NCBI RefSeq assembly: GCF_019083995.1
Contig: NZ_JAHRCU010000031.1
Coordinates: 1-35,265, forward strand
Length of the DNA: 35,265 nucleotides
Direction: 5' to 3'
DNA from: Roseococcus sp. SDR
GTDB lineage: Bacteria; Pseudomonadota; Alphaproteobacteria; Acetobacterales; Acetobacteraceae
A program made the position numbers and the translations under genes. The notes beneath the pieces are model-generated. The model was given only the letters and a program-made list of their open reading frames with translations, was not told the origin of the DNA and did not search any database. Below are positions 13,147 through 15,671 of the stretch, piece by piece. Within the stretch, counting starts at the first letter, position 1. Every line of letters starts with the position of its first letter.

Positions 13147-13548
13147 TCAGTGCACGCCGCCCTGCTGGTGCGGGCTGTCGAGCGAGAAGGCGGGGACGGC
13201 GGCGTCGAATTCCTCGCCGGTCTCGCTCACGATCATGTGGTAGGTGCCGCGCATGAAGCCGGATGGCGTGGGGAGCGGCGTGCCGGAGGTGTAGTCGAAG
13301 CTCTCGCCGGGTTCGAGGATGGGCTGCTCGCCCACCACGCCCTCGCCATGCACGCGCATCTCGCGGCCCAGCGCATCGGTGATGATCCAGCTCCGCTTGA
13401 GAAGCTGGACCGTGACGGAGCTGAGATTCTCGATCTGCACCTTGTAGGCCCAGACATAGCGCCCGGCTTCCGTGTCCGACTGGTCGGCCAGGAAGAAGGG
13501 GCGGATGGTGACGCGCACGCCGCGCGTGACGGTGGTGTAGGGCTTCAT
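13147..13548 (-). CDS. apaG: Co2+/Mg2+ efflux protein ApaG
   Basis: 133 residues, a single fibronectin-III-like domain. Family features are [74 protein letters not shown] and MRGTYHMI. The length matches ApaG (about 125-130). Despite the name, its biochemical role is not well settled. ATG 13548 overlaps the stop of the exporter gene by four bases (ATGA), so the two are coupled. apaG next to metZ is a recurring alphaproteobacterial arrangement. Confidence 0.95.
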
Positions 13549-14168
13549 GCGCGGCGCATCGCGGCGGTGGCGAGGCCGGCGCCGATCAGCATGCCGCCGC
13601 CGAGGCGATTGAAGCCGCGGCGGATGGCGGGGCGCTTCACCGCATCGGAGAGCGTGCCGGCCAGCAGCGCATAGCCTAGCGCGTTGAGCGCGCCGAGGCC
13701 CACGAAGGTCACGAGCACGAGCGCGGCCTGGGGCAGGAAGGCGCGCTCAGGGTTCAGGAATTGCGGGACGAAGGCCACGAAGAAGGCGATGCTCTTGGGG
13801 TTCAGCACCGTCACCAGGAAGGCGTCGCGGAAGGCGTGGCGGGCGGGGAGGGCCACGGCCTCACCCGATGTTTCACCCACTGGCGCGCGCCAGAGCTTCA
13901 CGCCGAGCCAGATGAGATAGGCCGCGCCCAGCCATTTCGCGACGGTGAAGGCCGCCGCACTCGCCGCCAGCAGGGCGCCCAGGCCGGCCAGCGAGGCGGT
14001 GAGCGCCACCGCATCGCCCAGCGCCACGCCGCCGACCGTGGGCAGCGCCGCGCGCCAGCCGCCGCCGAGCGAGCGGCCCAGGATGAAGACCACGACCGGC
14101 CCCGGGATCATCACCGCGATGAGCGAGGCGGCCGCGAAGGCAAGCCAGGTTTCGAGCGTCATGGCCAT
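13545..14168 (-). CDS. LysE/RhtB-family amino acid exporter
   Basis: A 207-residue membrane protein with about six hydrophobic segments. Typical LysE-superfamily landmarks are MIPGPVVVFILGRSLGGGWRAALPTVGGVALGDAV, WLGAAYLIWLGVKLWR, FRDAFLVTVLNPKSIAFFVAFVPQFLNP and LNRLGGGMLIGAGL-like C-terminal residues. This family exports basic or neutral amino acids and homoserine lactone-type compounds. It starts 27 bases after metZ and ends inside the apaG start. Its place in the methionine unit suggests an overflow route for homoserine, methionine or a related thio compound. That substrate is inferred only from context. Confidence 0.92.
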   Translation of the reverse strand: MAMTLETWLAFAAASLIAVMIPGPVVVFILGRSLGGGWRAALPTVGGVALGDAVALTASLAGLGALLAASAAAFTVAKWLGAAYLIWLGVKLWRAPVGETSGEAVALPARHAFRDAFLVTVLNPKSIAFFVAFVPQFLNPERAFLPQAALVLVTFVGLGALNALGYALLAGTLSDAVKRPAIRRGFNRLGGGMLIGAGLATAAMRRA

Positions 14169-14195: not shown

Positions 14196-15401
14196 CTACT
14201 CCGCCGCGCGGAGGCCGGGCGCGCTGACCGCGTCCAGCGCCTCGGCCAGATCCTCGATCAGGTCGGCCACGTCTTCCAGACCCACCGAGAGGCGCACCGT
14301 GCCATCGGTGATGCCGAGCTTGGCGCGCTCCTCCGGCCCGATGCGCATATGCGTGGTGGTGGCCGGATGCGTGGCCAGCGACTTGGAATCGCCCAGGTTG
14401 TTGGAGATGTCCACGACCTGCAGCGCGTTCATGAAGCGGAAGCACGCTTCCTTTCCGCCCTTGATGTCGAACGTCACCAGCGTGCCGCCGGCCGACATCT
14501 GCCGGACCGCCAGCGCATGCTGCGGGTGGTCGGCGCGGAAGGGGTAGAGCACGCGGGCGATCTCGGCGCGCTCGGACAGGAAATCGGCGACCGCGGCGGC
14601 GTTGCGGCACATCTGGTCCACGCGCAGCTTCAGCGTCTCCAGGCCCTTGAGGATGACCCAGGCGTTGAAGGGGGACATGGCGGGGCCGGTGTTGCGGATG
14701 AAGGGCATCAGCACCTCCTCCACCCACTTCTTGCGGCCCAGCACGGCGCCGCCCAGCACGCGACCCTGGCCGTCCATGTGCTTGGTGCAGGAATAGACGA
14801 CGACGTCCGCACCCTGCTCCAGCGGCTTCTGCAGCAGCGGCGTGGCAAACACGTTGTCCACCACCACCAGCGCGCCCGCGGCATGCGCGAGCTTGCAGAC
14901 GGCCGGCACGTCCACCAGCTCAAGCATCGGGTTGGAGGGGCTTTCCAGCAGCACCATGGTGGCGGGCTTGCTCAGCGCCACCTTCCACTGCGCCATGTCC
15001 CCGCCATCCACGAACTCGGCCTCGATGCCGTAGCGCGGCAGCAGCGTGCTCACGATCCAGTGGCAGGAACCGAAGAGCGCGCGGGAGGCGACCAGGCGGT
15101 CGCCGGTCTTGAGGTGGGAGAGGAGCGCGGAATGCACCGCCGCCATGCCGGTCGCCATCAGGCGGCAGGCTTCGGCGCCCTCGATGGCGCAGAGGCGGTC
15201 CTCGAGCATGGTCGTCGTCGGGTTGGCGAAGCGGCTGTACTGGTAGTGCTCGATCTCGTTCTTGAAAGTGGCCTCGGCCTGCTCGGCATTGTCATAGACG
15301 AAGCCGGAGGTGAGGAACATCGCCTCGGCGGTCTCGCCATGGTTGGAGCGGTTGAGGCCGCCACGGACGAGTTGCGTGGCGGGACGAAGCTTGCGGGACA
15401 T
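14196..15401 (-). CDS. metZ: O-succinylhomoserine sulfhydrylase
   Basis: A 401-residue PLP enzyme of the Cys/Met metabolism family. It makes homocysteine from an activated homoserine and sulfide. Seen are TQLVRGGLNRSNHGETAEAMFLTSGFVYDNAEQAEA at the N-terminus, YSRFANPTTTMLEDRLCAIEG, the cofactor lysine Lys207 in YSCTKHMDGQGR, and MSPFNAWVILKGLETLKLR. The opening SGFVYDNAEQAEA pattern is typical of MetZ rather than MetB or MetC. ATG 15401 follows GATGAGGG by about nine bases. In-frame codons up to 15425 would add eight residues. The long leader carries a SAM-II-like riboswitch, which predicts repression when S-adenosylmethionine is high. Confidence 0.94.
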   Translation of the reverse strand: MSRKLRPATQLVRGGLNRSNHGETAEAMFLTSGFVYDNAEQAEATFKNEIEHYQYSRFANPTTTMLEDRLCAIEGAEACRLMATGMAAVHSALLSHLKTGDRLVASRALFGSCHWIVSTLLPRYGIEAEFVDGGDMAQWKVALSKPATMVLLESPSNPMLELVDVPAVCKLAHAAGALVVVDNVFATPLLQKPLEQGADVVVYSCTKHMDGQGRVLGGAVLGRKKWVEEVLMPFIRNTGPAMSPFNAWVILKGLETLKLRVDQMCRNAAAVADFLSERAEIARVLYPFRADHPQHALAVRQMSAGGTLVTFDIKGGKEACFRFMNALQVVDISNNLGDSKSLATHPATTTHMRIGPEERAKLGITDGTVRLSVGLEDVADLIEDLAEALDAVSAPGLRAAE

Positions 15402-15485
15402 GATGAACACCCTCATCCGAAACAATGAAGTCCGGCACCCTGGGCGGGGTGGGGATTGCGCCCGCGCATGACGGGGCGTTCCCTG

Positions 15486-15584
15486 GGCCGTTTAGCGCGC
15501 TTGTTTTCCGCCTCGATCAGGGAAACCTGAAGAAGACGACCCGGTTGGGACCTCGCCGCAAGCTGGCCGGACAAATCGCGAGGG
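15486..15584 (-). promoter_or_regulatory. Candidate SAM-II (SAM-alpha) riboswitch in metZ leader
   Basis: Read on the minus strand, CCTCGC (15583-15578) pairs with GCGAGG (15556-15551) to form P1. The enclosed loop carries GATTTG (15577-15572) and AGCTTGCG (15564-15557). Downstream CAAGCGCGCTAAA (15503-15491) can pair its CAAGC with GCTTG of the loop to make the pseudoknot and ends in the GCTAAA block. These are the hallmark pieces of SAM-II, in the right order. An extra hairpin TCAGG-TTTC-CCTGA (15530-15517) fills the long connector, as optional stems do in some members. The gene behind it, metZ, is a known target type. Confidence 0.75.
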
Positions 15585-15591
15585 CGTATAA

Positions 15592-15620
15592 GGCTTAGAC
15601 CCCGCCCCGAGGGCCGTCAA
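15592..15620 (-). promoter_or_regulatory. Candidate metZ promoter
   Basis: On the minus strand TTGACG (15620-15615) lies 17 bases before TAAGCC (15597-15592). Transcription would then start near 15585, just where the riboswitch begins. The -35 is a good match and the -10 is weak. A second AT-rich hexamer, TTATAC, lies at 15591-15586. The spacing to the aptamer is the main support. Confidence 0.45.
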
Positions 15621-15642
15621 TGATCCGACGTCATTGACGGCC
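15612..15642. repeat. 12-base inverted repeat at the metZ/hpt divergent promoter region
   Basis: GGCCGTCAATGA (15612-15623) and TCATTGACGGCC (15631-15642) are perfect complements around TCCGACG. The left arm covers the proposed metZ -35 box. Its size and symmetry fit an operator for a dimeric regulator, but could also form a hairpin in a transcript toward hpt. The regulator is not identified. Confidence 0.7.
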
Positions 15643-15671
15643 ATGGTTGCGCAATGCGAAGAGTCTCAGGA

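Follow-up and report, generated by a model that had tools for sequence, protein, structure and literature searches.

A SAM-II-type riboswitch with a lineage-specific module in loop L3 ahead of metZ in Roseococcus, and its possible relay to a distant ribosome-binding site

The leader of metZ in Roseococcus sp. SDR almost certainly contains a SAM-II aptamer. As read from its sequence, it runs along the minus strand from 15583 to 15486 of the window (the whole stretch of 35,265 nucleotides that was analysed), has metZ downstream and would bind SAM. Comparison with relatives supports the predicted aptamer, a module inserted into its loop L3, a promoter, a leader element complementary to loop L1 and a hairpin over the Shine-Dalgarno (SD) sequence; SAM binding, the direction of control and the relay from L1 to the element are what we infer. 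On balance, we favour a SAM-II riboswitch that has a normal pocket and a lineage-specific L3 module, and that would turn metZ off at high SAM via this L1 relay.

The target gene (14196..15401, minus strand) is indeed metZ, as the sequence-only reading of this DNA had assumed, since the encoded O-succinylhomoserine sulfhydrylase scores 567 bits against TIGR01325 (cut-off 510). From the end of the aptamer to the metZ ATG (15401) there are 84 nt, close to the 85 bases estimated earlier. Starting 27 nt after metZ, a reading frame at 13548-14168 shows similarity to homoserine/homoserine lactone efflux proteins (140.5 bits with NF007812, short of the cut-off of 209). Because this efflux-like gene adjoins metZ, an exporter linked to methionine precursors may likewise be under the control of the SAM-II leader.

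The aptamer and its family assignment

A permissive scan of positions 15400-15660 (261 nt) aligned 15583-15550 with model positions 10-43 of the Rfam family RF00521 (SAM_alpha) at 31.4 bits and E 1.3e-5. The 3' half, 15523-15472, gave a second, separate and weak match of 11.7 bits (E 3). The match is split and covers half of the aptamer because an insert separates P1 from the 3' half of the pseudoknot. The gathering score of RF00521 is 36 bits, and since 31.4 bits fall below it, a default Rfam scan of the window reported no match. In the whole 5.0 Mb genome the metZ leader is the sole RF00521 match at E ≤0.001 (E 6.1e-5). The covariance search that the sequence-only reading had proposed thus singles out the right locus, but with a score under the gathering threshold. 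The P1 stem and the P2 pseudoknot (GGCC/GGCC) are both present and the element lies upstream of a methionine/SAM biosynthesis gene, metZ; because it is the curated cut-off alone that the two matches do not reach, we file it as a SAM-II variant and not as a plain member of the family. Even with E values of up to 10 allowed, the genome has no match to the SAM-II long loop family RF01726, and membership in it was dropped. A covariance model that we built from 13 relatives (R1; window's genome excluded, the close relatives L106 and L117 among the 13) matches 15583-15486 over all 86 positions with 92.8 bits and E 1.1e-20. Together with the RF00521 match, this bears out the earlier proposal of a SAM-II-like riboswitch ahead of metZ. 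With a z of 0.61, folding the aptamer of the window by itself carries little information.

The sequence-only reading had listed P1, GATTTG, AGCTTGCG and CAAGCGCGCTAAA in SAM-II order, and all of them occur on the minus strand, at the coordinates given here. P1 pairs CCUCGC (15578..15583) with GCGAGG (15551..15556), both strands being defined by the RF00521 and R1 matches. Loop L1 (15557..15577), delimited by the RF00521 match and the sequence, with pocket positions taken from PMC3764141, contains GATTTG (15577-15572), UUU (15575-15573), the 5' strand GGCC of P2a (15568-15565), AGCTTGCG (15564-15557) and the 5' strand UUGC of P2b (15561-15558). On the 3' side lies CAAGCGCGCTAAA (15503-15491). 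The remainder of loop L3, AAAACAAGCGC (15497..15507), is a candidate A-minor strand, with AAA-N-A in 79 of the 80 distinct rows of the extended form described below. The 3' strands of P2b (GCUAAA) and P2a (GGCC, 15489-15486) together occupy 15486..15496 and are placed by RF00521, R1 and the sequence.

In SAM-II, the fully conserved pocket positions are U10-U12, U20, U21, G22, C23, G42, C43, U44 and A45-A47, and A36/A37 of L3 dock on P1 (PMC3764141). In the window, UUU, UUGC and GCUAAA follow one another in this order when mapped by sequence match, and L3 is A-rich. By the same mapping, the insert lies 5' of the A-run of L3, and hence the pocket could stay untouched. Because our parser required the pocket strings, finding them conserved among extended rows adds no independent support.

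The inserted module and its distribution

The extra connector hairpin of the sequence-only reading was half right: the lengthened connector is real, but it holds two hairpins, P3 and P4, and not one. P3 (15540..15549) pairs CCC with GGG, and P4 (15508..15539) has 7 bp and, in the window, an additional apical hairpin of 5 bp. Inserts could be parsed for 77 of the 80 distinct long-insert rows, and 72 of these 77 adopt the two-hairpin fold; the five others comprise three from another genus with an insert of its own and two single hairpins (L040, L052). On average the P4 helix has 6.26 pairs; shuffled inserts reach 4.06. For covariation we aligned 13 equally long sequences as A1, taken from 16 inserts of 31 nt (L134 and L144, which repeat the insert of L080, and L082, in which P4 is out of register, were left out). 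In A1, 95.6% of cells pair; shuffles reach 82.3% and slid partners no more than 50.2%. The covariation score of the whole structure is 0.411 versus 0.167 in shuffles and at most 0.142 with slid partners. P1 and P2 are paired to 100% and near invariant, with three of the four P2a pairs invariant, and therefore have no covariation support of their own. P3 is paired in 97.4% of cells and no P3 pair changed on both sides. Since P1/P2a hardly vary and P3 varies on one side only, the covariation in A1 comes from P4, where seven of eight pairs show compensatory changes on both sides, a number of pairs that does not exceed chance in A1 (6.2 in shuffles; 193/500). The P3-P4 module probably forms a side branch that stacks next to P1 and is dispensable for the pocket, because relatives have dropped the module and yet kept the core.

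RF00521 was searched for in 299 genomes of the family: 247 gave a match at E ≤0.01, and 204 scored above gathering. Fifty of the 299 were taken by eye, mostly for weak or partial RF00521 matches, and 80 further stretches were drawn from the stronger matches listed; neither sample is random. The 50-genome sample has the window-type L3 insert in 37 genomes (this genome included, and the single-hairpin L040 and L052), a compact form in five and a degenerate one in one. In five more, L3 holds an insert of another kind. All five (L034, L035, L036, L039, L051) belong to one genus and sit on their own branch of the MetZ tree, and their separate insert is unlike P3-P4 in sequence and shape. Two single cases in this sample place a hairpin-forming insert elsewhere, before GCTAAA in L059 (G097) and inside L1, 3' of GATTTG, in L033 (G050). 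The leader L076 (G132) has a degraded SAM-II core with GATCTG and without GCTAAA, and may be a riboswitch in decay.

Searching the named genome collection with a DNA pattern that describes the extended form gave 70 stretches, which are assigned to Roseomonas/Roseococcus-group genera or to 'Acetobacteraceae bacterium', two being labelled only 'Rhodospirillales bacterium'. We take these genera to belong together as one Roseomonas/Roseococcus group; several genera with the extended form are placed in the Roseomonadaceae by NCBI. Genomes of the window's genus have the same aptamer insert and leader as named Roseococcus records (L041 with L133, L042 with L112, L045 with L136, L046 with L125) and, in one case, as a Sabulicella record (L047 with L138). 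A class sample of 385 genomes yielded ten R1 matches at E ≤1e-4, of which only that in the window's genome has the extended length; the other nine span 55-57 nt. Within the collections and samples searched, the module was thus found in the Roseomonas/Roseococcus group only.

Of 230 loci, 224 could be parsed, the strings sought being absent from L032, L076, L172, L202, L205 and L208. The next gene downstream is metZ in 223 of the 224, and the remaining locus is cut by the end of its stretch. These 223 loci reduce to 189 distinct rows, 80 with the long insert (extended) and 109 compact. In a tree of 186 MetZ proteins (FastTree), all 72 rows labelled as carrying the module fall on a single branch that has a local support of 87 and comprises 81 rows, nine of them compact. 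The tree requires at least seven changes of the module, four of them forced by well-supported branches, versus 57.6 in shuffles. The module was probably gained once and lost several times, for instance in L055 and L058 within otherwise module-bearing genera.

Promoter, leader element and the control of metZ

The earlier reading also proposed a promoter just upstream of the aptamer, and here comparison lends support. On the minus strand, the -35 hexamer TTGACG (15615..15620) and the -10-like TAAGCC (15592..15597) are separated by 17 nt and end 8 nt 5' of P1. TTGAC occurs about 24-64 nt 5' of P1 in 76/80 extended rows, the window included, and in 91/108 compact rows, where shuffles give 1.06 and 2.32. 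Followed after 16-19 nt by TA or TTA, it is found in 74/80 extended (0.12 in shuffles) and 59/108 compact rows. A generic sigma-70 scan of the window found no promoter site. The -35 box is overlapped by an inverted repeat, GGCCGTCAATGA-7-TCATTGACGGCC (15612-15642, minus strand), and similar GTCAA..TTGAC pairs stand upstream in the close relatives L090, L106, L117 and L147. The repeat could represent divergent -35 boxes set back to back, or an operator located between metZ on one side and the HPt-like and response-regulator genes on the other.

Between aptamer and start codon (median 75 nt in extended rows), what is conserved is a short element close to metZ. In the window it reads GCCGGAC (15430..15436, minus strand), a seven-base complement of L1 GUCCGGC (15572-15566), and in general it is a GGCCGG-like motif, the complement of CCGGCC in L1, which is located some 35 nt ahead of the start codon and adjoins an SD-covering hairpin. 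We tested it in 156 rows with UC[CU]GG[CU]C in L1. Of these, 133 carry the pattern [GU]G[CU][CU]GG at a distance of 25-45 nt ahead of the start codon, with about 16 expected from shuffles (64/80 extended against 8.9, 69/76 compact against 7.5). In 17 of the other 23 rows the element stands at 46-67 nt, and six have none within the searched range; for some of the 23 the start codon was probably wrongly chosen. A perfect GGCCGG 24-50 nt before the start is present in 73/156 rows (7.85 in shuffles). Among 61 single departures from it, 24 are C-to-U changes that still pair with L1 as G-U, a share of 6% in shuffles, and transition bias could contribute to the observed 24/61; in another 23 the first G is a U and the end pair with L1 is lost. 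GCCGGAC is found in 67/80 extended leaders and GGCCGGAC, an eight-base match to GUCCGGCC, in 46/80, the window having the seven-base form. As a control, 20 of the 52 genomes without an RF00521 match were searched, 13 of which gave a MetZ-like match. Eight aptamer-free metZ leaders with proteins at 56-75% identity were compared, while eight loci at 34-41%, likely other sulfhydrylases, were excluded. In these eight orthologues the element is absent within 180 nt of the start (133/156 versus 0/8, Fisher p 7e-7).

Directly after the element, and sharing one base with it in the window, begins the hairpin CUUCAUU/GAUGAGG (15411..15430), which covers part of the SD sequence GAGGGUG (15414-15408). Across 133 rows its arms covary: pairing is stronger between arms of the same species than between swapped ones (-11.45 vs -9.39 kcal/mol, 0/5000 permutations). 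The 69 compact rows alone again give 0/5000; the 64 extended rows alone are not significant (358/5000). At least four SD pairs form in 59/64 extended and 67/69 compact rows, a count of little weight because shuffles already reach 73-74%. Leaders such as L002, L004 and L013, with AGCGGCC in L1, carry CAGGACTTCCACGGCC, in which CUUCCA matches the SD sequence TGGAGG; these are perhaps masked in a similar way, with the order of the parts reversed.

From these parts a scheme of control can be drawn. Transcription would start just upstream of P1. With SAM bound, L1 and the 3' GGCC would be locked in the P2 pseudoknot, leaving the GCCGGAC element free, and the hairpin that starts there would cover the SD sequence and keep metZ off. 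Without SAM, L1 GUCCGGC would pair with the element; the aptamer would be dismantled, the masking hairpin disturbed, and ribosomes could load to turn metZ on. SAM and the downstream element would thus compete for the same L1 nucleotides. The sequence-only reading had argued against control by directly hiding the ribosome site. Masking of this site is likely after all, because an L1-complementary element beside an SD hairpin is what is conserved downstream, but it would be distant and indirect. We consider translational repression at a distance likely, and put forward the relay from L1 to the element as a tentative proposal. Results that count against it are the 23 departures without the end pair, the arm test in extended rows, the single base shared by element and SD hairpin in the window, and the co-change and folding results given below.

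The same aptamer could instead act by premature transcription termination. This has been predicted, together with an sRNA of about 100 nt, for metZ of Sinorhizobium meliloti (PMC9373788), and the sequence-only reading named it as one possibility. The leaders examined here speak against it. Intrinsic-terminator-like sites are near background, at 2/80 extended (1.2 in shuffles) and 5/109 compact rows (2.4), and a scan for the U-run type found none in the window leader; a simple terminator scan of the window marked one weak site, inside the aptamer at P3. Intrinsic termination was dropped for these reasons, and we regard control by premature termination as unlikely. The downstream hairpin with CGCCC..GGGCG (15452..15483), which the earlier reading offered as a control element, fared no better as a conserved switch: over the 80 extended rows, the maximal helix length within 50 nt after the aptamer is 7.2, about the same as the 6.9 of shuffles. 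A further possible hairpin, CACCC/GGGUG (15436..15451), was noted from its letters.

The SD hairpin might also mask the ribosome site while SAM acts without L1, either because the element pairs with the 3' GGCC or because the leader refolds otherwise. GGCC is palindromic, so that L1, the 3' strand and the element are all mutually pairable, which favours such a route, and L1 and element co-change weakly among the 42 rows whose L1 has another sequence (172/5000). Nested folding models have no means of showing pseudoknots such as those considered here; in them, SD exposure did not track the pairing state of L1 and element: with the element blocked it rose by more than 0.2 in only 16/64 extended and 5/69 compact rows and fell in the window from 0.32 to 0.22, and free and bound leader models gave 0.318 vs 0.310 (extended), 0.334 vs 0.379 (compact) and 0.50 vs 0.54 (window). 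Against this stands the pairing found in free folds, where L1 and element share on average 3.09 pairs in extended and 2.50 in compact rows and the 3' tail and element only 0.12 and 0.10; when the window leader is folded without constraints, L1 takes up nearly the entire element region (7.95 pairs). Pairing of the 3' GGCC with the element was therefore dropped as the main alternative, and we hold control without L1 to be improbable. That the inserted hairpins mark a ligand variant or a dead remnant which no longer senses SAM might be suggested by the score below the RF00521 gathering threshold and by the relative L076, which has lost GCTAAA. The pocket strings are present in the window, however, R1 from relatives gives it 92.8 bits and metZ follows in 223/224 loci, which makes this reading very unlikely. 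With the L1 relay as the preferred route, L1 may double as an anti-anti-Shine-Dalgarno sequence via the GGYCGG element in Acetobacteraceae, and the Roseomonas group may have a pseudoknot whose module was gained and repeatedly lost; we propose this with some reserve.

Relation to known SAM-II systems and implications

SAM-II was described as a compact structure in which compensatory mutation backs P2, and many members have putative terminators (PMC1273637). Like the metA element behind RF00521 SAM_alpha in that account, the Roseococcus leader has P1, UUU in L1, UUGC, GCUAAA and the GGCC/GGCC pseudoknot, a promoter a few nucleotides before P1 and a methionine gene downstream. Unlike it, there are extra hairpins in L3, the score is below the gathering threshold, no terminator was found, and the SD region is far from the aptamer, with the ATG 84 nt off. 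RF01726, the SAM-II long loop family listed for Bacteroidetes and marine sequences (PMC2864571), shares the riboswitch class by name but is a different form; in its consensus, taken from a sub-threshold match, the P1 hairpin is interrupted, and a short A-rich stretch free of hairpins precedes GCUAAA. Another known case is that of S. meliloti, where metZ is a SAM-II target as well. There, termination is predicted for metZ, and the SD sequence of metA lies inside the riboswitch, with translation starting 74 nt from it (PMC9373788). Unlike these, the leader described here has a separate L1-complementary element and an SD hairpin, and no terminator was found. The extended form and its platform did not appear in the titles and abstract openings that searches of the open-licence literature returned, and an earlier description elsewhere is possible.

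SAM-II is otherwise known as a compact riboswitch. Hairpins that were seemingly added at one point of the pseudoknot and removed several times amount to a natural experiment on which of its parts are dispensable. The Rfam threshold leaves a metZ riboswitch unannotated in many members of one species group, and the leaders of this group offer a testable route by which SAM-II could control translation about 85 nt away.
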